Translations under genes and position numbers: made by a program
Shown: positions 7,942 to 20,624 of the stretch, in pieces
How the letters are laid out: every line of letters starts with the position of its first letter
How positions within the stretch are numbered: position 1 is the stretch's first letter
The notes under the pieces: model-generated
What the model saw: only the letters and a program-made list of their open reading frames with translations
The model's database searches: none
Told to the model about the DNA's origin: nothing
Origin: an uncultured Spirochaetales bacterium
Lineage (GTDB): Bacteria > Spirochaetota > Spirochaetia > Sphaerochaetales > Sphaerochaetaceae
Assembly (NCBI GenBank): GCA_949297785.1
Contig: CASFTW010000003.1
Location: 1-64,000 of the forward strand
DNA: 64,000 nt
Direction of reading: 5' to 3'

Positions 7942-9021
7942 GTGAATAATAAAAACATACTGGTTACCGGATCAGGAGGTTTTATAGGATCCAATCTTTG
8001 TCTGGAGCTTTTAAGAAGATTTGATTCAATAAGCATTGTAGGAATAGATAACCTCAATGATTACTATGATGTGTCAATCAAAAAGTGGAGACTCAAGCAG
8101 ATTGAAGAAGAAGTCGGAAAGCATGAGGGCTCTTCGTTCAGCTTTGTAAAGGGAAGCATTGCAGATAAAGCACTGATTGATAAGCTTTTCGCTGAGAATG
8201 GTTTTGATATTGTTGTAAATCTTGCAGCACAGGCAGGGGTGAGGTATTCAATAACAAATCCCGATGCATATATAGAGTCCAATATAATAGGCTTTTATAA
8301 CATTCTTGAAGCCTGCCGTCATTCTTATGACAATGGTAAGAAGGGTGTTGATCATCTGGTATATGCATCCTCTTCATCAGTATACGGCTCAAACAAGAGG
8401 GTTCCTTATTCGACAGATGACAAAGTTGACAATCCTGTATCATTGTATGCGGCAACAAAGAAAAGCAATGAGCTTATGGCTCATGCATATTCAAAACTGT
8501 ACAACATACCTTCCACAGGATTGAGGTTCTTTACTGTTTATGGACCTGCAGGACGTCCTGATATGGCGTATTTCGGCTTTACAAACAAGCTTGTGAAAGG
8601 TGAGAAGATACAGATCTTCAATTACGGAAACTGCAAGAGGGATTTCACATACATAGATGATATAGTTGAAGGTGTCATAAGAGTAATGGAAAAGGCACCG
8701 GAGAGAAAGAGGGGAGAAGACGGACTTCCTGTACCTCCGTATGCACTGTATAACATAGGCAATAATAGCCCTGAGAATTTGATGGAGTTTGTGAAGATTC
8801 TCTCGGAAGAGCTTGTAGAAGCAGGAGTGCTTCCATCTGATTATGATTTTGACTCGCATATGGAGCTTGTTCCCATGCAGCCGGGAGATGTACCGGTAAC
8901 ATATGCAGATACCATACCGCTTGAAAGAGATTTCGGTTTCAAGCCCGACACATCATTGAGAGACGGGCTCAGAAAGTTTGCTCAGTGGTATAAAGAGTTT
9001 TATAATTTAAGAGATTGTTGA
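7942..9021 (+). CDS. UDP-glucuronate 4-epimerase
   Basis: 359-aa extended SDR epimerase that interconverts UDP-glucuronate and UDP-galacturonate. It shows the NAD-binding GSGGFIGS loop, the GIDNLNDYYDVSIK segment characteristic of the CapI/UGlcAE group, the YASSSSVYG active-site Ser/Thr strand, and the catalytic Y-x3-K in SLYAATKKS. The downstream RFFTVYGPAGRPDMA and RDFTYIDDIVEG blocks also match UDP-glucuronate epimerases closely. It starts at a GTG with GGAGAG seven nt upstream. It complements ugd (19368), which makes its substrate. The following ATPase gene starts 41 nt after its stop. Confidence 0.9.
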   Translation: MNNKNILVTGSGGFIGSNLCLELLRRFDSISIVGIDNLNDYYDVSIKKWRLKQIEEEVGKHEGSSFSFVKGSIADKALIDKLFAENGFDIVVNLAAQAGVRYSITNPDAYIESNIIGFYNILEACRHSYDNGKKGVDHLVYASSSSVYGSNKRVPYSTDDKVDNPVSLYAATKKSNELMAHAYSKLYNIPSTGLRFFTVYGPAGRPDMAYFGFTNKLVKGEKIQIFNYGNCKRDFTYIDDIVEGVIRVMEKAPERKRGEDGLPVPPYALYNIGNNSPENLMEFVKILSEELVEAGVLPSDYDFDSHMELVPMQPGDVPVTYADTIPLERDFGFKPDTSLRDGLRKFAQWYKEFYNLRDC

Positions 9022-9062
9022 GCTATATAACATCAGACTATATTGTTGGGAGCTTAAAAAGG

Positions 9063-10154
9063 ATGAGTATTAATTGGAGTATAAATAATATCTCGATAAA
9101 GGGCTTTAAATCCTTAAAAGAAATAAACAGGTTTGAACTTGGAAATCTGAATATAATCATAGGTGCGAACGGATCAGGTAAGAGTAATTTTATTCAGATT
9201 TTTCACATGCTCTCTGCAATAGCTCAGAAGGGGTTTTCAAAGTTCATCCTTGAAAGAGGAGGTGCTGATAATTTCCTTTTCAATGGGCCTAAAGTGACAT
9301 CTGAACTGGAGATGGAAATTAATTTCCAGACTGATGCCATTGGAATTCATTCTTATAGAGCAGTGTGCTCTCCGACTGCCGATGAAAGATTTCTATTGTC
9401 GGAAAGCGTAAAGCATGGACAGTCCGGATGGACTTCGTGTGGAGCAGTTTCAGAAGAAAGCAGGATTTCAGAAATCCGTGATGAAGACTGTATTTATGAT
9501 TTGATTTCCAACATTGTTGTTTATCATTTTCATGATACAAGTGCAAATGCTCCGATGCGAAGGTCTGAGATAGCTGAGGACAATAAAAGACTGCGAGGTA
9601 ATGCTTCGAATATAGCTCCGTTCCTTTTAGGGCTCAGGGAAAATAACCAAAAAGAGTATGAAGAAATCAGGAACGCTGTCAGACTTGTAATGCCTTTTTT
9701 TGATGATTTCATTCTTGATGTTGTCAAAATGGGTGAAGCTGAGAAGGTAAGGCTTTCCTGGAAACAGAAAGGAGCTGACTTTCCGATGCAACCATATCAT
9801 TTTTCTGATGGTTCTATACGTTTTATATGTCTTGCCACCGCTTTACTGCAGCCTGTTCTTCCTTCAATTATTGTCATAGACGAGCCAGAGCTTGGGCTCC
9901 ATCCTGCTGCTGTCTCAATTCTGGCTGAACTTATTCAGGCTGCATCTCATAAGGTTCAAGTCATTATTGCAACTCAGTCTCCTATGCTTATTGATCATTT
10001 CAGTATAAATGACATCATTGTTATGGGCAGGGAGAATGGGGCTTCTGCTATGAAGAGACTTGATCCTGATGACTTCTCGCTATGGCTTGAAGATTATTCA
10101 GTTGGTGAATTATGGGCAAAGAATGTCATTGAAGGAGGCCCTGTGAATGAATAA
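9063..10154 (+). CDS. AAA/SMC-like ATPase of an ATPase-DUF4276 two-gene module
   Basis: 363-aa P-loop ATPase of the AAA_21/OLD-like ABC class. The N-terminus reads SIKGFKSL, then Walker A GANGSGKS at residues 34-41; Walker B IIVIDEPELGLHP begins at 269 and a sensor-like IIATQSPML follows. There is no room for a TOPRIM domain on the same chain; that role seems to fall to the next gene, which overlaps this one by 8 nt. This arrangement (ABC-type ATPase plus TOPRIM-like partner) resembles OLD, Gabija and PARIS defence systems in logic; a defence role here is an inference. The start is the ATG at 9063, preceded by AAAAAGG and GGGAGC, rather than a longer frame overlapping the epimerase. It sits as a pair inside a polysaccharide locus, which suggests insertion. 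Confidence 0.85.
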   Translation: MSINWSINNISIKGFKSLKEINRFELGNLNIIIGANGSGKSNFIQIFHMLSAIAQKGFSKFILERGGADNFLFNGPKVTSELEMEINFQTDAIGIHSYRAVCSPTADERFLLSESVKHGQSGWTSCGAVSEESRISEIRDEDCIYDLISNIVVYHFHDTSANAPMRRSEIAEDNKRLRGNASNIAPFLLGLRENNQKEYEEIRNAVRLVMPFFDDFILDVVKMGEAEKVRLSWKQKGADFPMQPYHFSDGSIRFICLATALLQPVLPSIIVIDEPELGLHPAAVSILAELIQAASHKVQVIIATQSPMLIDHFSINDIIVMGRENGASAMKRLDPDDFSLWLEDYSVGELWAKNVIEGGPVNE

Positions 10155-10833
10155 CTATGCTACTGTGATGGCTATTGTAGAAGGGGCTACTGAAGAGAAT
10201 TTTATCAATACCGTTCTTGCACCATATCTGGGATATAAGAATATATGGATGCATGCTACGCAAATTTCAAAGCCGGGACAAAAAGGCGGGGATGTAAGAT
10301 TTGATAGAGTCAAGAATGATATAATGCGTCATCTGAAACAACGGAAAGATACGATTGTCACTTTGTTCCTCGATTTCTATGGATTAGCAGAATGGCCGGG
10401 ACTTGAATCTGTGTCTTTCAATTCTTCTCCTGCACAAATTGAACAGATATTATGTTATGCAACTAAACTTGAAATCAAAGGATTTCTTCCTGATGTTGAT
10501 GTAGAAGGGCGGTTTATTCCTTTCTTTATTGTACATGAATTTGAAACTCTGCTTTTCAGTAATTCTGCAGTTCTTGCAGATGGTCTTGGCATAAAAAAGC
10601 AAAAAATAGATAAAACGTTAAGAGAATTTAACGGCGATCTGGAAAGAATCAATAACAGCAGGGAAACTGCACCATCAAAACGTATTGAGAAATGGATGCC
10701 TTCATACAAGAAAACTGTGAATGGAATCCCAATCGCAGCAAAAATTGGTGTAGAGCAGATGCGGCGCTCTGTTCCATTATTCGATGAATGGATCACAAAA
10801 ATAGAACGAGTAAATTCTAAATGTACTGGATGA
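10147..10833 (+). CDS. DUF4276 family protein, TOPRIM-like partner of the ATPase
   Basis: 228 aa. The first strand carries IVEGATEENF (Glu12, Glu16, Glu17) and the next acidic element is TLFLDFYG (Asp76), followed by FFIVHEFETLLFSN. This is the pattern of DUF4276, whose fold is regarded as TOPRIM-like, with the Glu and Asp as likely metal ligands of a nuclease or phosphotransfer site. The start ATG has GGAGG ten nt upstream inside the end of the ATPase gene, so the two are translationally coupled and almost certainly act together. No membrane segment or DNA-binding motif is evident. Function in vivo is unknown; nuclease activity triggered by the ATPase is the simplest guess. Confidence 0.8.
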   Translation: MNNYATVMAIVEGATEENFINTVLAPYLGYKNIWMHATQISKPGQKGGDVRFDRVKNDIMRHLKQRKDTIVTLFLDFYGLAEWPGLESVSFNSSPAQIEQILCYATKLEIKGFLPDVDVEGRFIPFFIVHEFETLLFSNSAVLADGLGIKKQKIDKTLREFNGDLERINNSRETAPSKRIEKWMPSYKKTVNGIPIAAKIGVEQMRRSVPLFDEWITKIERVNSKCTG

Positions 10834-12641: not shown

Positions 12642-13876
12642 ATGTATTTGCTGAAGCACAAGGATGACACAGTTGCTGTAATAGATATTGTTGGCAGTGA
12701 TGCGTCCGGTATCAGGATCAATGAGATAGTGAATAATCATCTGCTTCCTCTTTGTGCCCAGCATGATATATCAAAATATAGCACTGGTGGAAGAGAAGGG
12801 CAGTGCCGGCTTCCCGGCCGGGTATAAGGCAGCTTCTGAGTGAGAGGCATATTGCATCTGTGCATCAGTTTCTGCTTGAGAACCTTGCATTGAATGTTAC
12901 AGACTGTTACTGGATATGTCCTCAGTCCTGGAATATTTCATGGGACAGTGTTTCATTTCATAAGAATGAATTCAAAGATGATCTTCCTTTCAACAGTACT
13001 GGAAACAGTTCTGATATTTTTGCAGGATCTTCATACAATCCTTCTGCTTCGCTTGGCGGTGATCTCGATAAACGGTGGATAAAAAAGAAAGGCAGGATGT
13101 TCCTTGTAAAAGGAAACATGCCCTGCAACTCTTTCCAGCAGTCGCTGAATGAGGTGTTTGCATCATAGCTTCACAGGAAACAGAAATTTGTCAATCATGT
13201 TGAATATAAGTTGGTGAAGTTGAAGGACGGTACTATTGGCTGTATATCGCCGTGTTTCACAAGCGATGATGTCGACTCCGCCTGGGAGATATTCGATAAA
13301 TACGGATATGACAAAAACAGTTCCTATATGGAGCAGTATGTTTTGCATTGTGCTGAGGAAGGAGCCGATCCTGCCTGCATCCGGAATTTTCTTGATTATC
13401 AGGCAATGACAGATTTCCTTATGACCAACAAGGACCGTCATCTGGCAAATTTCGGTCTGCTGAGAGATTCCAATACACTTGAGTGCATCGGTCCTGCTCC
13501 GATATTTGATACCCGCAACAGCATGTTCTATGATGGCGTTGCCGTTGTGAATTACCGTACAATGCTTGATGTGAGAATACAGAGTCTGTATTCGACAGAA
13601 CGGAAAACCATGGAGAATGTTATTAGCCAAGGTGTAGTACATCTGGATAAAGTGCCTGATACCGCTTCAGTCAGAGAGTTTTATGAGCAGGATCCGACTC
13701 TCGTTTCATTTGCATCCAGAATTGCCGACAGTTTCGAATTCAAGTGTGCAATGGCAAAAGAACTTCAGGACGGAAAATCCTTCAGCCAGATAGCAAGAGA
13801 AATCATCTCCTTCTATTCCGGCAGGGGGAAGGAAGAGAAGGAGTCGCTTGCTTTGTATTCCAGAAGCATTTTATAG
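12642..13876 (+). pseudogene. HipA-like Ser/Thr kinase, broken by a frameshift and an in-frame stop
   Basis: Three collinear pieces make one HipA-like protein. The first (from ATG 12642, after AGAGGAAGAGAG) reads MYLLKHKDDTVAVIDI, the usual N-terminus of the short-N HipA group. Near 12783-12786 the frame shifts by one base, after which WWKRRAVPASRPGIR and CYWICP follow in the new frame, both family hallmarks. At 13166-13168 a TAG interrupts this same frame between NEVFAS and LHRKQKFVNHVEYKL. The rest is intact and includes the kinase catalytic region FLMTNKDRHLANFGLL and the metal-binding IFDTRNS. With two lesions it is almost certainly inactive. No homopolymer tract lies at the frameshift, so phase variation is unlikely. 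No partner antitoxin (HipB) is seen beside it. Confidence 0.8.
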
Positions 13877-13884
13877 AATATCTT

Positions 13885-15054
13885 TCACTCGCCAAGCAGC
13901 TTGTCGGCTACATCTCTGAGCACGCCATGTCCGCCAGCATATGGTGAAATATAATCCACAACTGAACGCACTGCCTCAACCGCATCTGCCGGGCAGCAGC
14001 TGTATCCGGCAGCCTTGAGCAATGGCAGATCGATCAGGTCATCACCTATATAGAGCACATTGTCCAATGTCATGTTCTCAGTCTTGCACAGTTCCTTCAC
14101 ATATGAAAGCTTGTCACTGCATCCCGGCTTGTAGAAATCAAGTCTGAGCTTTTCAACCCTGCGACGATTCAGGTCGACATTCTCGCCTGTCACAATTCCG
14201 GTGAGGAATCCTTTTTCTCTGAGCAGGGCGAAGCCTTTGCCGTCTTTGGTGTTGAATTTCTTGAGCTCATCTCCTTTTTCGGAGTAATACATACCTCCGT
14301 CCGTAAGACATCCGTCACAGTCAGTGAGCACCATTTTTATGTTTCTGAAGTCTTTCTGTCCTGCAAGGCCTTTCTTTTTCATGAGCATTTCGATGATCAC
14401 CCAGTCGGACGGCTCATCAATTTCAAAGAAAGAATCTTCATCCATTTCGACAGCCCTGATATTTCCGCTCACTCTGTTCTTTGTTTTCAGAAGATCAGCT
14501 TTTGATGTGATGTAGAATGCTCCATTTTCCACCAGATATCCGTCAAATTCCTGCCTTCTTGGGCGGTGGAACACATCATAGTTTGTAGGATGCACAATGC
14601 CATTTTCATCACAGGCCCAGTTGAAACGTTTCTGACGGACTACAGACAGCACGCTGTCAGTACCTGGCTGCGAGAAAAGTTCAAAACCTTTATCAAGGTC
14701 GGCTGCTGTCAGTAGGGGAGAGGTTGCCTGCACCAGCGCGATATTGTCAAATTCGTATGATGGTGCGAATTCAAGCATTGCAGATTCCGTAGATGCCGTA
14801 TCTGATGCTGATTGTGCAGATCTTCCAATAACTCTCAGTTTTGAAAAGCACGGTGCTTCAGCTTTAAACTTCTCTGCTGTTTCCTTTATTGCCTCACTGT
14901 CTGTGGCTACATAGACGGTGTCAATGTATCTGCACTCGCATGCGGCCTTTACTGTCCAGTAGACAAGCGGTTTACCGCAGATAGGTTTTATATTTTTTAG
15001 CGGAATTGACTTACTTCCTCCGCGCACCGGAATGAAAGCTGCATTCATTTTCAT
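13885..15054 (-). CDS. Fused CMP-nonulosonate synthetase and KdsC-like HAD phosphatase
   Basis: 389 aa in two domains. Residues 1-230 are an acylneuraminate/KDN cytidylyltransferase: FIPVRGGSKSIPLKNI is the CTP-binding loop, and VQATSPLL and EIDEPSDW follow as in NeuA. Residues 239-389 are a HAD phosphatase of the KdsC type with nucleophile motif LTDCDGCLTDGG (Asp245, Asp247), IVTGEN and IGDDLIDLPLLK. Fusion of these two activities suggests a route in which NeuB makes a 9-phosphate intermediate that is dephosphorylated and then activated with CTP, as in animals and in Bacteroides KDN synthesis. The gene overlaps the CBS-cupin gene by an ATGA, with GGAGA before the start. Whether the product is CMP-Neu5Ac or CMP-KDN cannot be read directly. 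Confidence 0.85.
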   Translation of the reverse strand: MKMNAAFIPVRGGSKSIPLKNIKPICGKPLVYWTVKAACECRYIDTVYVATDSEAIKETAEKFKAEAPCFSKLRVIGRSAQSASDTASTESAMLEFAPSYEFDNIALVQATSPLLTAADLDKGFELFSQPGTDSVLSVVRQKRFNWACDENGIVHPTNYDVFHRPRRQEFDGYLVENGAFYITSKADLLKTKNRVSGNIRAVEMDEDSFFEIDEPSDWVIIEMLMKKKGLAGQKDFRNIKMVLTDCDGCLTDGGMYYSEKGDELKKFNTKDGKGFALLREKGFLTGIVTGENVDLNRRRVEKLRLDFYKPGCSDKLSYVKELCKTENMTLDNVLYIGDDLIDLPLLKAAGYSCCPADAVEAVRSVVDYISPYAGGHGVLRDVADKLLGE

Positions 15055-15809
15055 ATTCTCCCATATTTATCTTCATAGCGGATTATATCATCTTCACCAA
15101 GATATTCTCCGATCTGCACTTCTGTGATGATGAGCGACTGTTTTCCATCTGTATTGATGAGTCTGTGCTTGGCGCCTTTGGGGATGTAGATATAGCTGCC
15201 GCAGCTGATTTCCTTTATATCATCCTCAAGCTGGACACGGCCACTGCCGTGCACCACTATCCAGTATTCCTCCCTGTGCTCATGAGACTGCAGGCTCAGC
15301 TCTTCTTCCGGTTTTACGCTTATCACTTTTGACTGATAGTATTTGTTCAGCACCGTGGTTTTATAAAAGCCCCAGGGGCGCATGAATATCTCACTGTCGA
15401 TGACACTTGTGTCAAGAGAGAGAAAATCGAAGCAGAGATCAGCCGGAATATCCTGAAGGAGCATGGTATGAAACTGGGCTTTTGTTATTATGTTTTCCAG
15501 TTTTCCATCATCTCCCAGTATGGGCAGGAACTTAATTGCCTGGCTTTTGAAAAGCTCGCTGACAATGTCAAAAGTATCTGTTACCTTGACAGCCTTTGCG
15601 TTTTGAGTGCAGATATTCATGACTTTATCAGAAAGCAGATGGCCGGAAAGCAGGGCACGGCGGACATCACCGTCCGTAAGGACACCTGCAACATGTTCTT
15701 CATCATCGATGACGATGAGAAAGCCCTGTTTGTTACGGTCTATCTTATGCAGAGCCTGTGAAAGCTCTGCCTCTTTGCTTATGATGAATGGTACAAGGTT
15801 CTCTTTCAT
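15051..15809 (-). CDS. CBS-domain pair fused to a type II mannose-6-phosphate isomerase cupin
   Basis: 252 aa. Residues 1-118 hold two CBS repeats (FLIVIDDEEHVAGVLTDGDVRR is the first core; KFLPILGDDGKLENIITK the second), modules that usually sense adenine nucleotides. Residues 140-252 form a cupin with RPWGFYKTT, SLQSHEHREEYWIVVHGSG, YIPKGAKHRLIN and EVQIGEYLGEDDIIRYEDKYGR, closely matching the isomerase domain at the C-terminus of ManC-type enzymes. The His/Glu metal ligands (HEHREE) are present. No nucleotidyltransferase domain is attached. Between neuB (7 nt upstream) and the NeuA-HAD fusion (4-nt overlap), its likely job is to make mannose-6-phosphate for NeuB, perhaps under nucleotide control. 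It might alternatively bind a sugar phosphate without catalysis. Confidence 0.8.
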   Translation of the reverse strand: MKENLVPFIISKEAELSQALHKIDRNKQGFLIVIDDEEHVAGVLTDGDVRRALLSGHLLSDKVMNICTQNAKAVKVTDTFDIVSELFKSQAIKFLPILGDDGKLENIITKAQFHTMLLQDIPADLCFDFLSLDTSVIDSEIFMRPWGFYKTTVLNKYYQSKVISVKPEEELSLQSHEHREEYWIVVHGSGRVQLEDDIKEISCGSYIYIPKGAKHRLINTDGKQSLIITEVQIGEYLGEDDIIRYEDKYGRI

Positions 15810-15816
15810 TTCTGTT

Positions 15817-16689
15817 TCAGTGCTTTCTGTATTTCAGCTTGTCTCTCTGTACCTGCTCAATCGGAAGAATTTCTTCTTTTTTATAGGTCAGCGCTTCATA
15901 CACATTGTTGAGATCCCTTACCAGACTCTTGATTCCGTACGGTTCAAGGGATGCTGCATGGTCGGTTCCTTTCCATGTTCTGTCCAGCGTGTAGTGACGC
16001 TCTATTATATGTGCACCCAGCGTGTATGCTGCAACATCAACTGCAATGCCGAGGTGATGGCCGGAGAAGCCTATCGCCTTTACTCTGGATTCATACTTCT
16101 CCCTCAGCCTCTTGATTTCAAGCAGACATATGTCCTGATATGGAACAGGATAGCCTGATGTGCAGTCGAATATGACAAGATCTTTTGCTTTTCCGTTGGC
16201 TTCAAAGAGAGAGACAATCTTCTCTTCTTCCTCATGCGTTGTCATTCCGAATGAAAGCTGGATCTCTCCTTTATAGTTGTCACAGAGCCACTGCAGCATT
16301 TCATAATGGGTATTGCAGGCTGATGGGATTTTAATGAACTGCGGCTTGAGGGATGCGATTTCCTTTGCACTTGTCATATCCCAGACAGAAGTGGAGTAGA
16401 TTATTCCGACCTGTTCGCACCATTCCTTGAGCTGGGCATGCTGGTCAACTGTGAATTCAAGAGCCTCCCTGTGTTCTCCATATGTCTTTCCATATGAGTT
16501 TTCCGGATGGGGGTGCGGTGCGTTGTACTGCTCCGGGGTCAGCAGTTCTTTCGGACATCTTTTCTGAAATTTTATCGCATCCGCCTTGCAGTATATCGCG
16601 GCGGTGTTTATGAGTTCATGTGCAATTTCCATTTCACCTTTGTGGTTGCACCCGGCTTCAGCTATGACAAATGGTTTCCTGTATTCCAT
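15817..16689 (-). CDS. neuB: NeuB-type nonulosonate (9-phosphate) synthase, no SAF domain
   Basis: 290-aa TIM-barrel enzyme that condenses phosphoenolpyruvate with a mannose-type sugar or its 6-phosphate. The start of the barrel reads FVIAEAGCNHKGEMEIA, with AIKFQKR, IKIPSACNTHY, LSFGMTT and GFSGHHLGIAVDVAAYTLGAHIIERHYTLD all typical of NeuB (metal ligands in GHH and ERHYTLD). The C-terminal SAF (antifreeze-like) domain of most NeuB proteins is absent, making it about 50-60 aa shorter. The start is the ATG at 16689 with AAAAGG nine nt upstream; an open in-frame extension to 16992 has no family similarity and runs through a terminator-like hairpin. First gene of a three-gene leftward operon. 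Confidence 0.9.
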   Translation of the reverse strand: MEYRKPFVIAEAGCNHKGEMEIAHELINTAAIYCKADAIKFQKRCPKELLTPEQYNAPHPHPENSYGKTYGEHREALEFTVDQHAQLKEWCEQVGIIYSTSVWDMTSAKEIASLKPQFIKIPSACNTHYEMLQWLCDNYKGEIQLSFGMTTHEEEEKIVSLFEANGKAKDLVIFDCTSGYPVPYQDICLLEIKRLREKYESRVKAIGFSGHHLGIAVDVAAYTLGAHIIERHYTLDRTWKGTDHAASLEPYGIKSLVRDLNNVYEALTYKKEEILPIEQVQRDKLKYRKH

Positions 16690-17185
16690 CTTTTCAATCC
16701 TTTTCCTGATTAAAGAGAAATAAACAGAAGGCATACCTTCTGTTTTGACTATAACATGAAGAGTGATGTTTAAAGAAGTATGAAATTTACTGTGCGTTGA
16801 GTGGTCCTGTTTTCTGCAGGTGCTTTGTTTGTTGAATGTATTTAGAAAATAAAAGGCTGAAATCTGAAAAGAGATCATCTCTTTTATCAAAAAACCTCCA
16901 CACAGGGAGGTTCCCAACGGGGCCGCGTACAGAAACAGTACGCTTAAAAACAAAGCTGGCATCCCGCCGGTGAGCAGTCCATATAAAAACATATGTCTGC
17001 GTTACAATAATAAACAGAAGAAGGTGATTTCGTCAAAGTCCGCATCGTATATCAAACACGGTATGAATTTGCTCGTCCGGTATCGTGTCGTCAGATGAAC
17101 CTTTCAGGAGAAGGAGATGTGCAAAAATGTAAATTATAGAATATGATAGATCATGCATTACTTACTATGCAGCAATAGGAATGAT
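16690..17185. other. 496-nt gap holding a structured element and no intact gene
   Basis: Between neuB and the XRE-like remnant. Bases 16867-16885 form an almost perfect palindrome (AAAAGAGAT, one base, ATCTCTTTT). Bases 16885-16990 contain three consecutive hairpins (listed separately). The part nearest neuB (16690-16866) should hold its promoter and leader but no convincing boxes stand out. From about 17020 to 17140 one plus frame reads KVRIVYQTRYEF and LSGEGDVQKCKL, which vaguely resembles a HigB-like toxin remnant; this is weak. Confidence 0.4.
16885..16990 (-). ncRNA. Candidate structured RNA or attenuator upstream of neuB
   Basis: Read on the minus strand, three hairpins follow each other: ACCGGC/GCCAGC around 16954-16973, GCGTAC/GTACGC (perfect 6 bp, 7-nt loop, 16925-16943), and AACCTCC/GGAGGTT around 16893-16912 followed directly by a T run. 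The last is an intrinsic terminator. The element lies about 200 nt upstream of the neuB start in the same orientation, so it could be a stand-alone small RNA of about 110 nt or a leader that controls read-through into the operon. It does not match tmRNA, SRP RNA, 6S or a riboswitch I recognise. Confidence 0.4.
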
Positions 17186-17420
17186 ATGGCTGAACATGTT
17201 TTTAAATCAGGATACAGCATTGAGAAAATTGAGAACGATTTCAGGAACGCTGATTTCTTCAGTGGCATTGAAGAAGGGCTCAGGGAAGCCATTGCCTATG
17301 AAAGGAACAGTGCAAATGCAAGGACTTTTTCCAGAAAAGGAGCCTTCCAGAAATAAATGCCAGGCAGAAGTGCAATCGCTGCAATGATACAGCAGACAGG
17401 GAATGCTGATTGAGGTATTT
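17186..17420 (+). pseudogene. Remnant of an XRE-family antitoxin (HigA-like)
   Basis: The ATG at 17186 (AGG eight nt upstream) opens a frame whose product, MAEHVFKSGYSIEK then FFSGIEEGLREAIAYERN and ARTFSRK, looks like the N-terminal helical part found before the helix-turn-helix in HigA-type antitoxins. It stops at 17356 after about 57 residues, before any HTH. A neighbouring frame continues with SLPEINARQ and then degenerate codons, matching the linker that should follow, so a frameshift near 17340 plus further decay is the likely cause. No clear toxin gene remains. The similarity is from memory of the family pattern, not a search. Confidence 0.4.
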
Positions 17421-17507
17421 GGTAATTCAGTTTAATCAAAATAGCGCATATTTGCTTATTTGAAATTATCAGTGTTAATTAAACATTACATCATGTGTTT
17501 GTGAGAT

Positions 17508-18344
17508 TCATCTTTTCGGCTGGTTTTTCAATACATCTTCAAGATTCTTTCTATCAAATACCTCAAGTGCACCGCCTCTGGTGCAGTTATAGATCCTGAA
17601 ATCAAGATTCTTTTCCTTTATGTCCTCATCCATGCTTTCGTAGTCGATTATGAATTTCTCCATGTCATCATTCGGTTTCAGGGCACTCTTAGCTGTTTCT
17701 ATTCCCTGTGCATGCCGTGCATTCTTTGAGTAGGTGCAGTCTGTTCCTATGAGATAGACTTCAGAAAAGCCCATGTAATATGCTGCCTGTATTATTGAAT
17801 GAACACAGGTGTGACCGTCATATATGAAAGATCCTGCGTCCGGACTCATCTTACAGTAATGACCTTTCTTCTGGTAATGCTTGTATGTCGAATTCATCAT
17901 TATGAAGTGATTGTATCTGGCTTTATAATATATTGCTTCTTTCGGCATTTTCCTGATCTGAAGACGGCTGTAAATGACTGTTGTTCCGTTTTTCAGCATT
18001 TCATCAATTGCTTCCATGGTTGGAGGGGTACATGCTTTACCATCTGAAATGAAATAGCAGTCAGGACGCCATTCTGTCCTGCCGAAAAGCTGATAACATC
18101 TGTTCATTGAGAATGTGTATTCACCGTTCTTTGTAAGCAGATCCAGATCTGCTGTTGTCAAGCTGGGACCCAAGCCTACGATGAAGCATCGTCTACCTTT
18201 GTACTTGTTTTTGAGTGCGGAAAAACGCTTATCCGGCTTCGTGAGGCGGAAACTTATATTCGTGTAAAGCAGACTCAGCGGTGTGCAGTATTTAACCAGA
18301 AAGTCCAGTGTCGGTGTGAATATTTCCTGAATTGTTTTTTTCAT
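17508..18344 (-). CDS. DUF115/MAF-like protein, candidate nonulosonate transferase
   Basis: 278 aa with the Rossmann-type start FIVGLGPSLTTADLDLL, then FSMNRCYQLF, RPDCYFISDG, and a conserved later block SIIQAAYYMGFSEVYLIGTDCTYS. This is the pattern of DUF115 (MAF/PF01973-related), with resemblance to GT42 sialyltransferases, which share the GxGPSL loop and a later aliphatic-G-x-D segment. DUF115 proteins in other bacteria are linked to transfer of pseudaminic or legionaminic acid. Its place about 0.8 kb upstream of the nonulosonate cassette makes it a reasonable transferase for the CMP-sugar; that is inference. It follows the GT2 gene by 4 nt and has no clear Shine-Dalgarno. Confidence 0.7.
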   Translation of the reverse strand: MKKTIQEIFTPTLDFLVKYCTPLSLLYTNISFRLTKPDKRFSALKNKYKGRRCFIVGLGPSLTTADLDLLTKNGEYTFSMNRCYQLFGRTEWRPDCYFISDGKACTPPTMEAIDEMLKNGTTVIYSRLQIRKMPKEAIYYKARYNHFIMMNSTYKHYQKKGHYCKMSPDAGSFIYDGHTCVHSIIQAAYYMGFSEVYLIGTDCTYSKNARHAQGIETAKSALKPNDDMEKFIIDYESMDEDIKEKNLDFRIYNCTRGGALEVFDRKNLEDVLKNQPKR

Positions 18345-18348
18345 AGTT

Positions 18349-19347
18349 TTACTTTTGAAATTTCTTTACAAAATAGAATGCTATTCTATAAGGTGTTTCT
18401 CCAACACTTAAAGCGTAATATAGGATGATCCCCGTGAGTCCTTTATAAGTTTTCCTTGCATCATTTCTGAGCTTGTTTCTTATATGTTTGAAAAAAGGTT
18501 TGTTTTTTTTCTTTCGTGTTGAATATCGATCCATCAGACCAAGATCTGCTCTGAAACAGCGTTCGTAGTATGCATCAATCAGATCAGCATCTCCTCCTGC
18601 ATTCATGATGTGTTTTTTCATATCGTTGAGTGCCAGATATTGGAATTTGGCTCTTTCTTCAAGATTCAGGCTTTTTGATCCTCCAAGACGTATTCTATAA
18701 CTTTGTTTAACACCATGGCCTTTTGCAATCAGTCTTGCTTGTAGAAGAGTATGGATCGTGAAATCCTGATCCTGTCCTATTCTTCTGCCTTCTTCAAAGA
18801 AAGGAAGGATTTCTCTTTTGAAAAGGCCGTTCCAGACATACATCTGGAATCCTTTTCTTGCTCTTAGACAATTTATTGTTGCTTCTTTACTGTTAAATAA
18901 TTCCACATGGTCTGGATTGGAATTTTTTGGCTGAGAGATAAATTGTCCATTATCATCAACTTTTCTGAATGAGCAGTATGCTATATCTGGTTTCATGTCA
19001 TTTATTTTCATGATAGAAAGCAAATAGTCATAAAAATCCGGATCAATATAATCATCTGCATCAATAAAAGAAACAAGTTCTCCAGTTGCATTGATAATTC
19101 CCGTATTGCGCACACCGCTTAAACACTCATTCTTTTTATGGTGAATGACTTTTATTCTGGAATCTTTTTCTGCATAATTGTCACAAATTTGTCCGCTTTT
19201 ATCTGTACTACAGTCATCCACAAGGATGATTTCAAGATTCTTGTATGTTTGATTTAGAATGCTGTCAATACACTGTCTAAGATATTGTTCAACATTATAG
19301 ACAGCAACAAGAACAGATATTAATGGAGTCCCATTATTGTATGGCAT
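18349..19347 (-). CDS. GT2 family glycosyltransferase
   Basis: About 332 aa, GT-A fold. The N-terminal domain has SVLVAVYNVEQYLRQCIDSIL, ILVDDCSTDKSG (nucleotide-binding Asp pair), LSGVRNTGI and the DxD-type FIDADDYIDPDFY. These are standard for inverting family 2 enzymes that use UDP-sugars on lipid-linked acceptors. The start is the ATG at 19347 with AAAGGAAA about ten nt upstream; the longer frame begins at a TTG. It follows ugd with a 20-nt gap and leads into the DUF115 gene, so the three form one leftward unit. The C-terminal region is basic and probably contacts the membrane. Sugar specificity unknown. Confidence 0.85.
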   Translation of the reverse strand: MPYNNGTPLISVLVAVYNVEQYLRQCIDSILNQTYKNLEIILVDDCSTDKSGQICDNYAEKDSRIKVIHHKKNECLSGVRNTGIINATGELVSFIDADDYIDPDFYDYLLSIMKINDMKPDIAYCSFRKVDDNGQFISQPKNSNPDHVELFNSKEATINCLRARKGFQMYVWNGLFKREILPFFEEGRRIGQDQDFTIHTLLQARLIAKGHGVKQSYRIRLGGSKSLNLEERAKFQYLALNDMKKHIMNAGGDADLIDAYYERCFRADLGLMDRYSTRKKKNKPFFKHIRNKLRNDARKTYKGLTGIILYYALSVGETPYRIAFYFVKKFQK

Positions 19348-19367
19348 TTTCTGTTTCCTTTTGTCTT

Positions 19368-20624
19368 TCAATCATTTCCGAACAGATCTCTTGTGTATAC
19401 TTTATCCTTCACATCGTCAAGGACATTACTGTATCTGTTAGCTATTATTGCCTGACAGCGTGACTTGAATTTATCAAGATCATTCACGACCTTGCTTCCG
19501 AAGAAAGTAGATCCGTCTTCAAGAGTCGGTTCGTAGATTATTACAGTTGCGCCTTTTGCCTTTATCCTTTTCATCACACCTTGAATGGATGACTGCCGGA
19601 AGTTATCGCTGTTGCTCTTCATGGTCAGACGGTACACCCCGATGACACATTCCTTCTCCTGTGTAGCACTGTAATCGCCCCTGTTGTAATAGTTGTAGTA
19701 ACCGGCAAGAGTGAGGATCCTGTCTGCTATGAAGTCTTTTCTTGTCCTGTTTGACTCAACTATGGCTTCAATGAGGTTTTCAGGAACATCCTTATAATTT
19801 GCAAGCAGCTGTTTTGTATCTTTGGGAAGACAGTATCCTCCGTAACCGAAGGAAGGATTGTTGTAGAAATCTCCGATCCTCGGATCCAGACATACACCTC
19901 TTATTATGGACTGCGAATCAAGGTTCTTCATTTCCGCATATGTATCCAGTTCATTGAAGAAAGAAACCCTGAGTGCAAGATATGTGTTTGCAAAGAGCTT
20001 TACGGCTTCAGCTTCGGTAAAGCCCATGAACAGCGTTTCTATGTTTTCCTTTACGGCACCTTCTTTCAGAAGAGAGGCGAATTCCTCAGCGCTTTTCATG
20101 AGGTCAGAATCATCCGGATCCGTTCCGACAATTATGCGGCTGGGATAGAGGTTGTCATACAATGCCTTTGATTCCCTGAGAAATTCCGGGCTGAAAAGGA
20201 TTCTGCCGCAGTTGTACTTTTCCCTTATTGACTTGGTATAACCTACAGGGATGGTACTCTTGATCACTATGATTCCGTTTCTGTTTACGGATAATATCTG
20301 TTCAAGTGCGGCTTCGACTGCACTGGTGTCAAAGAAATTCTGTTTTGAATCATAATTTGTCGGAGTTGCTATGATTATGTAGTCAGCATCTTTGTAGGCA
20401 GAATTTCCGTCAAGAGTGGCTTTCAGGCTGAGATCTCTTTTGCCTTCCTTTGCTTCCTGAAAATATTTTTCTATATATTCATCCTGAATCGGAGATGTGA
20501 AAGAGCTTATTTTCCTGACCTTGTCTTCAATTATGTCAACAGCGGTCACTTCATTGTGCTGGGAAAGAAGCACTGCCAGCGAAAGGCCGACATACCCTGT
20601 ACCTGCTACTGCAATTTTCTTCAT
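19368..20624 (-). CDS. ugd: UDP-glucose 6-dehydrogenase
   Basis: 418 aa. Oxidises UDP-glucose to UDP-glucuronate with two NAD+. Visible signatures are the NAD-binding GTGYVGLS near the N-terminus, IIATPTNYD, the STIPVGYT strand, FSPEFLRE, the hinge-helix [15 protein letters not shown], and the catalytic cysteine in [11 protein letters not shown] at about residue 262. The length fits the short bacterial class. The start at the ATG 20624 is preferred over the GTG two codons earlier. There is no good Shine-Dalgarno, and a TTCACT-17-TATGAT promoter ends 6 nt before this ATG. It supplies the epimerase at 7942 and possibly a glucuronosyltransferase nearby. Confidence 0.93.

Follow-up and report, generated by a model that had tools for sequence, protein, structure and literature searches.

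A three-gene cassette predicted to make CMP-KDN in an uncultured Spirochaetales bacterium, with relatives in other phyla

Introduction

KDN (2-keto-3-deoxy-D-glycero-D-galacto-nononic acid) is a sialic acid that lacks the customary amino group; pathways for its synthesis are already known. In Bacteroides thetaiotaomicron, BT1713, BT1714 and BT1715 are the KDN-9-phosphate (KDN-9-P) phosphatase, synthase and cytidylyltransferase that lead from mannose-6-phosphate (Man-6-P) through KDN-9-P and KDN to cytidine monophosphate (CMP)-KDN, and we know of no phosphomannose isomerase (PMI) partner for these enzymes. Here we analyze a three-gene cassette encoded on the minus strand at positions 13885-16689 of a 64,000-bp stretch (hereafter, the window) that forms the beginning of contig CASFTW010000003.1 (C3), in the 2.2 Mb, 95% complete genome of an uncultured Spirochaetales bacterium of the Sphaerochaetaceae (GCA_949297785.1). 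The cassette encodes a NeuB-family synthase, a protein joining a CBS pair to a PMI-type cupin, and a fusion of a CMAS-type cytidylyltransferase to a HAD phosphatase domain. A preliminary description of this DNA, based on the sequence alone, had proposed that the three proteins convert fructose-6-phosphate (Fru-6-P) to a CMP-nonulosonate, probably CMP-KDN; we place the probability that the cassette makes CMP-KDN at about 0.7.

The corresponding synthase and synthetase reactions have also been described in the alga Prymnesium. Man-6-P was the only one of seven sugars tried that the Kdn-9-P synthetase converted, and the CMP-Kdn synthetase did not convert N-acetylneuraminic acid (Neu5Ac) (PMC6200933).

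Results

Domain organization of the cassette proteins

The three open reading frames (ORFs) are intact and lie on the minus strand at the positions first reported, confirming a tight leftward operon: the NeuB gene (290 aa, 15817-16689; PF03102) is separated by 7 bp from the CBS-cupin gene (252 aa, 15051-15809; PF00571, PF01050), which in turn overlaps by 4 bp the gene for the CMAS/HAD fusion (389 aa, 13885-15054; CTP_transf_3, PF02348, with a C-terminal HAD domain). The ORF listing places the NeuB start further upstream (391 aa); the conserved ATG at 16689 matches relatives. Among the matches listed, the nearest named relatives of this NeuB come from metagenome-assembled genomes (MAGs) of uncultured Spirochaetales.

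The N-terminal part of the fusion (14359-15054) matches CTP_transf_3 with 77 bits in Pfam. Its best match in the PDB is 9t4z, 'PpNeuA' (186.6 bits), followed by the CMAS structure 1qwj (133.7 bits), with the NeuA structures 6ifd, 9ftb and 1eyr at 60-67 bits. We guess that PpNeuA is the Prymnesium parvum enzyme; this could not be confirmed, no paper naming PpNeuA having been found. If the guess is right, the closest solved structure is that of an enzyme for which no conversion of Neu5Ac was seen (PMC6200933). The domain is predicted to be a CMP-KDN synthetase. Together with a 72.8-bit match of the fusion to 3ewi, the 1qwj match upholds the animal-like domain order pointed out earlier.

The C-terminal KdsC/YrbI-like HAD domain (13885-14349; NF058599, TIGR01670) is 46% identical to BT1713 and keeps both catalytic aspartates. 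At the positions aligned to E56, R64 and K67 of BT1713, it carries E, R and K, as do 68 of 68 HAD domains of the relatives described below; the equivalent residues are R, R and D in KdsC (1j8d) and R, R and S in YrbI (3mn1). Among the mutant BT1713 chains of the PDB, 4hgq is altered at E56 and 4hgr at E56 and K67, and we take these three to be sugar-binding residues of BT1713 and a mark of KDN-9-P phosphatases. The nearest NCBIfam model, although below its cut-off, is that of the KDN-9-P phosphatases (NF058599), and the KdsC model gives 122.9 bits (cut-off 208). The domain is thus predicted to be a KDN-9-P phosphatase, in keeping with the earlier argument that a HAD domain implies a 9-phosphate intermediate.

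The synthase consists of a PF03102 TIM barrel (235.9 bits, cut-off 22.1), and the Pfam search matched no SAF domain in it, unlike classical NeuB, so that its description as SAF-less stands. Against the N-acetylneuraminate synthase equivalog TIGR03569 it reaches 198.4 bits, under the curated cut-off of 399.65. The protein is predicted to be a KDN-9-P synthase that would use Man-6-P and phosphoenolpyruvate (PEP). A second PF03102 match in the same genome, on contig C10, was rejected as a NeuB, being by eye a 3-deoxy-D-arabino-heptulosonate-7-phosphate synthase/prephenate dehydratase-like ORF.

The suspected union of a CBS pair with a PMI domain is borne out by Pfam scores of 46.1 bits for CBS and 113.6 bits for MannoseP_isomer (PF01050, cut-off 23.6) within one 252-aa protein, which also matches Cupin_2; the CBS pair spans approximately residues 1-120 and the type II PMI-like cupin residues 140-252. 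Only the cupin part aligns to the bifunctional mannose-1-phosphate guanylyltransferase/PMI (GMP-PMI) model TIGR01479, with 111.7 bits, under the cut-off of 372.95. In an alignment of the window protein with 22 of the 26 CBS-PMIs reported below (leaving out L138, L140, L146 and L158), residues Q174, H176, E181 and H215, presumably the metal ligands, are invariant in all 23 sequences, and the tail EVQxGxYxGEDDIxRxxDxYGR is mostly invariant or nearly so, with much of it common to a GMP-PMI. The predicted model of the protein (pLDDT 92.7, pTM 0.68) places the Thermococcus PMIs 7zvm and 7zvy (Z ~17) at the top of the cupin fold matches, 7zvm ranking first with Z 17.2 and a root-mean-square deviation of 1.4 over 101 aligned residues. 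Rows within 1 Z count as tied, which holds fully or almost for the CENP-C cupin (Z 16.4) and the CapF cupin (Z 16.2); the fold alone therefore does not prove a PMI. The CBS-cupin is predicted to be a Fru-6-P/Man-6-P isomerase. The CBS part of the model resembles CBS pairs whose structures contain S-adenosylmethionine/methylthioadenosine or AMP, and the pair perhaps, or even probably, senses a nucleotide.

Recurrence of the cassette in named genomes

A scan of named genomes returned at least 588 stretches, of which the best 80 were analyzed with flanks of up to 8 kb, often ended by contig ends. The hosts of these 80 loci comprise Lachnospiraceae, Oscillospiraceae, Butyrivibrio, Flavobacteriaceae, Bacteroidales, Coriobacteriia, a verrucomicrobial MAG, Spirochaetales and others, cultured as well as uncultured, several loci coming from rumen, cecum or similar metagenome bins. 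Cultured hosts include Sedimentibacter hydroxybenzoicus DSM 7310 (L148) and Eubacterium oxidoreducens DSM 3217 (L140), which have a CBS-PMI, as well as Butyrivibrio sp. XPD2002 (L120) and Nonlabens tegetincola (L159), which lack one. Six-frame profile searches identified a HAD domain in 68 loci, fused to CMAS in 60, an MptE-like gene in 16 and a CBS-PMI in 26, fused in every case. The full trio in the fused form of the window is present in 20 of the 80 loci, other phyla included, and this co-occurrence argues that the cassette is not a product of chance. Some of the loci are near-copies of each other (L153, L158), so these counts are not independent.

All 68 HAD genes lie on the strand of NeuB, 45 of them within 300 bp, and the CBS-PMI gene lies within 300 bp of the NeuB or HAD gene in 20 of its 26 loci. 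The order of the genes varies among these 26: NeuB/CBS-PMI/CMAS-HAD in 11, NeuB/CMAS-HAD/CBS-PMI in 10, no HAD in two and mixed strands in three. HAD and cytidylyltransferase are separate proteins, as in B. thetaiotaomicron, in L102, L103 and L138. Among 19 control loci around other NeuBs (flank 1.5 kb), CBS-PMI was found in none and HAD in three.

Phylogenetic inference with FastTree on 143 NeuB rows places the window on a 108-row side (HAD 51, CBS-PMI 30, NeuC 0), opposite 35 rows encompassing all nine NeuC loci, the split having a local support of 99. The alignment leaves out NeuB fragments and long multidomain matches, and the tree contains many long viral branches, with its deep forks unsure. 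CBS-PMI requires 12 changes on this tree and thus comes and goes. The small NeuB clade of the window sits among Bacillota sequences, with weakly supported surrounding forks, a placement that suggests horizontal transfer of this clade. In Sinorhizobium meliloti and in S. fredii NXT3, plasmids encode a NeuB of the clade to which that of the window belongs, 60-61% identical to it and followed by a 389-aa CMAS-HAD frame; no CBS-PMI match was found on plasmids at 1e-30. Kdn glycans have been reported from another strain, S. fredii SVQ293 (PMC7845648, PMC9000132).

NeuB relatives also occur on 36 viral contigs (L173-L208), with a cytidylyltransferase in 27 and a HAD in two; a search of phage records for NeuB gave no match at 1e-40. 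In L056 (10421-11197) and L057 (11881-12783), close NeuB relatives have genes for IspD-like cytidylyltransferases and an epimerase-like gene nearby in place of CMAS, and these loci perhaps serve a different activated sugar. A TRPDQ peptide is repeated in several ORFs of L062 (8615-9349, 11538-12056, 13051-14226), perhaps reflecting a DNA repeat that runs through gene ends.

Search for an N-acetylmannosamine route

The preliminary description had argued that no NeuC would be needed and had pointed to a genome search for neuC or UDP-N-acetylglucosamine 2-epimerase genes. That search, across the 95% complete genome, returned no match to Epimerase_2 (the NeuC/WecB family), none to the AGE family and a single NanE match of 21 bits, under the 27-bit cut-off. 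NeuC was likewise found in none of the 80 named loci by six-frame search, with a profile built from five Epimerase_2 matches of the spirochaete phylum and of uncertain sensitivity in Bacillota. The same profile detected NeuC in nine of the 19 control loci. The proposed NeuC-independent route therefore agrees with both the host genome and the loci of its relatives.

To place these results within the phylum, 392 genomes were searched with the window NeuB. Matches at 1e-30 were obtained in 46, of which 11 carry a close form (at least 63% identity), making 12 with G008. Some of these genomes also contribute to the 80 named loci (G008, G010, G014 and G415 corresponding to L093, L095, L113 and L124). 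Over cut-off, NanE is found in 0 of the 12 and a PMI (type I or PF01050) in all 12, weakly in G014 and G254. Five genomes (G012, G010, G415, G217 and G238) show no match over cut-off to the NeuC, NanE or AGE families. Among the 35 genomes of this phylum whose NeuBs are of other kinds, 25 have Epimerase_2 over cut-off, and in 23 it is located no more than 5 kb from a NeuB, vs. none of the 12 with the close form (Fisher p ~8e-5, uncorrected for relatedness); the nearest among the 12 is 13 kb away (G179). These distances use the matches judged nearest or best, and the NeuB counted for G161 is its second; the first, linked to a HAD, lies ~40 kb away.

Two NeuB motifs were counted as the patterns [FY]Gx[TAS]YGxH[RK] and [KR]G[TS]D[HQ]xxSL. 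Both are carried by the window NeuB and by two control loci with HAD and without NeuC (L037, L050), and both are missing from nine of nine NeuC-linked control NeuBs; in control L039, HAD is present and the motifs are missing. Because the named-genome scan used the KGTD motif in part to select its loci, finding it in 80 of 80 carries little weight; the scan did not select on the other motif.

Neighboring genes and other features of the window

Upstream of the cassette, on the same strand, lies a gene (17508-18344) for an MptE-like/DUF115 protein (PF01973, 61.6 bits, cut-off 34.6), a family that also includes the pterin enzyme MptE. The predicted model of this protein (pLDDT 82.5) matches the Maf structure 5mu5 (Z 15.1, 220 aligned residues), the sialyltransferase CstII (Z 10.7), Cst-I and others (Z ~10), and also an archaeal HPPK (Z 12.3). 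Given its similarity to Maf and sialyltransferases, a role as transferase of a CMP-activated sugar is plausible, and the protein is a candidate CMP-KDN transferase that may pass KDN to a surface glycan. The MptE-like gene adjoins a cassette gene in L023, L024, L058 and L119, and lies one gene from NeuB in L025. A GT2 glycosyltransferase gene immediately upstream of it (18349-19371, minus strand; PF00535), which likely belongs to the same glycan locus, also adjoins the MptE-like gene in L023 and L025.

No gene is called in the ~800 bp between NeuB and the MptE-like gene (16690-17507), a place occupied by a DUF3800 gene in the relative L025, and a minus-strand terminator-like hairpin (16722-16745) lies directly upstream of NeuB. 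Promoter and terminator scans yielded 9 promoters vs. 8.8 expected and 9 terminators vs. 4.2 expected. Elsewhere in the window, on the plus strand, an AAA_21 ATPase/DUF4276 gene pair (9015-10154 and 10147-10833) strongly matches the PADLOC candidate defense system HEC-01A/HEC-01B, and two ORFs (12803-13168 and 13211-13876) jointly resemble one 411-aa ORF of L025 (12055-13290) with a weak HipA_C match, of which they are apparently a broken copy.

Discussion

Drawing each catalytic step, its substrate and the CBS ligand from protein families, folds, residues and gene neighborhoods, we propose the following route. The CBS-cupin would isomerize Fru-6-P to Man-6-P, while its CBS pair probably serves as a nucleotide sensor; the SAF-less NeuB would join Man-6-P and PEP to give KDN-9-P; the HAD domain would strip the 9-phosphate to yield KDN; and, in the same protein, the cytidylyltransferase domain would combine KDN with cytidine triphosphate to form CMP-KDN. 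More speculatively, the MptE-like protein encoded upstream could then move KDN onto a surface glycan. The choice of KDN over Neu5Ac, made in the preliminary description, is supported by the absent NeuC route, the HAD residues and the PMI-like cupin fold, and we infer it on the same grounds.

Several observations weigh against this reading, some of them in general and others, taken up below, by lending themselves to particular alternatives. The HAD domain reaches only 154.4 bits against NF058599, under the cut-off of 180, and the sole listed model passed by the fusion protein is the broad YrbI/KdsC subfamily TIGR01670 (121.3 bits, cut-off 106.95). Of four relatives' HADs (L057, L102, L148 and L171), none reaches the NF058599 cut-off, three of them scoring 109.9-173.9 bits, and for the Flavobacterium locus L171 a KdsC/YrbI model scores best. 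The uncertain reach of the NeuC profile in Bacillota belongs here as well, and the comparisons carry no correction for relatedness. Certain relatives also depart from the expected gene content: NeuB lies beside an IspD-like gene in G010, where neither CMAS nor HAD turned up in the 20 kb read, and is accompanied by a lone HAD in G014, a departure from the simple story. Nor does every plasmid-borne relative fit, the Tritonibacter NeuB (L216) lying near pseB and pseC with no CMAS or HAD match.

An alternative confined to the first step leaves CMP-KDN as the product. It regards the CBS-cupin as a regulator or dead sensor, with Man-6-P coming from a type I PMI and NeuB and CMAS-HAD forming the cassette proper. 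Such an enzyme is present: a type I PMI catalytic domain (PF20511, 73.9 bits) lies on the same contig at C3 91500-91922, so that Man-6-P would be available even without the cupin, which is not needed to explain it. The cupin as the only PMI of the genome is ruled out by this match, PF01238 covering only the C-terminus. The earlier view that the cupin could make Man-6-P keeps the PMI-like fold and presumed metal site in its favor, but the cupin would not be the sole source. No CBS-cupin was found in 54 of the 80 named loci within the DNA fetched, and G415, a genome of the same family with NeuB, CMAS-HAD and an MptE-like gene, lacks it too. Yet a dead sensor sits poorly with presumed metal ligands and most of a C-terminal tail that vary hardly or not at all across 23 sequences, and we consider this alternative unlikely.

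Somewhat less credible, in our judgment, is that the cassette makes CMP-Neu5Ac by an animal-like route, with NeuB acting on N-acetylmannosamine-6-phosphate (ManNAc-6-P), the HAD domain on Neu5Ac-9-phosphate, and the cupin feeding another pathway, such as that to GDP-mannose. The domain logic is the same as in the animal route, NeuB motifs are not known to tell users of Man-6-P from users of ManNAc-6-P, an AGE-family gene lies inside the plasmid-borne Maritalea cluster (L217), and some genomes of the clade have over-cut-off matches to AGE (5 of the 12 close-NeuB genomes) or Epimerase_2 (3 of 12). The human synthase is reported to take ManNAc-6-P besides Man-6-P (PMC6200933). The host genome and five relatives, however, have no over-cut-off NeuC, NanE or AGE match, no NeuC was found in the 80 loci, and in 20 of 26 cases CBS-PMI is directly beside the NeuB or HAD gene.

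Distinctly improbable is a different nonulosonate, whether KDN later acetylated or methylated or a C9 acid made from another hexose-6-phosphate with the cupin as epimerase of that sugar: an acyltransferase-3 gene lies between NeuB and CMAS-HAD in L097, S. fredii is known to have a 5-O-methyl-Kdn polysaccharide (judging by a title cited in PMC9000132), CapF cupins come near PMIs in fold score and the L216 NeuB lies near pseB/pseC, but the cupin still has the C-terminal signature of PMIs, shared with a GMP-PMI, and solved PMIs rank first, tied with another cupin.

With CMP-KDN as the predicted product, the recurrence of the cassette in other phyla suggests that bacterial surfaces may carry KDN more often than has been assumed. 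If so, KDN would be the product of many genes named 'N-acetylneuraminate synthase', and sialic acid surveys of bacteria that rely on neuB alone would be misread. A far-reaching version of this idea, which we put forward tentatively and hold to be doubtful as a whole, is that a portable CMP-KDN module, composed of a SAF-less NeuB and a CMAS-KDN-9-phosphatase fusion and in many cases equipped with its own CBS-gated PMI and Maf-fold KDN transferase, could be widespread in gut Bacillota, Spirochaetota and Bacteroidota, making KDN a common gut-bacterial surface sugar whose synthesis is committed at Fru-6-P under nucleotide control. KDN is reported to withstand most sialidases of bacteria and viruses (PMC7845648), a property that would matter for gut surface glycans.

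The joining of a PMI-type CBS-cupin to a KDN pathway, and the breadth of its occurrence, appear to be new, no paper on a CBS-cupin in nonulosonate clusters having been found in the open-licence literature searched. Relative to B. thetaiotaomicron, the succession of intermediates would be the same, with CMAS and HAD fused in the window and separate there. A BT1713-like operon occurs in a genome of the same class (L209, 8396-10738), comprising a cytidylyltransferase, a NeuB with a SAF domain and a HAD that shares 63% identity with BT1713; this HAD, likely a KDN-9-P phosphatase, passes the NF058599 cut-off with 243 bits and TIGR01670 as well. Its NeuB is only 36% identical to that of the window (G394) and belongs to another lineage, so that BT1714 is not to be taken as the orthologue of the window NeuB.

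The Prymnesium enzymes catalyze the same two reactions, but no Kdn-9-P phosphatase homologue was found in the alga, and neither a phosphatase fusion nor a CBS-PMI is described in the accessible portions of that work. In the Serratia marcescens KL1/KL2 capsule loci, NeuB carries an added sugar phosphate isomerase/epimerase domain; unlike the cupin joined to a CBS pair, this is a COG1082 domain within NeuB itself (PMC9000132). The capsule polysaccharide there contains KDN, accompanied by Neu5Ac at ~1:20, and neuB mutants show fourfold lower sialic acid in a color assay (PMC9000132).

The cupin domain shares its conserved signature with the bifunctional GMP-PMIs (ManC/AlgA, TIGR01479), from which the window protein differs in having a CBS pair in place of the guanylyltransferase. 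The MptE-like neighbor has the fold of the Maf flagellin glycosyltransferase and GT42 sialyltransferases, but is short and single-domain, with 16-18% identity to them. The CMAS-HAD fusion itself is already known, since a review reports the CMAS C domain in vertebrates and some bacteria (PMC13214540). Vertebrate CMAS has the same order as the window fusion, an N-terminal synthetase followed by a C-terminal KdsC-like domain; whereas in humans the phosphatase step is ascribed to a separate protein, NANP, the window HAD keeps both catalytic aspartates.

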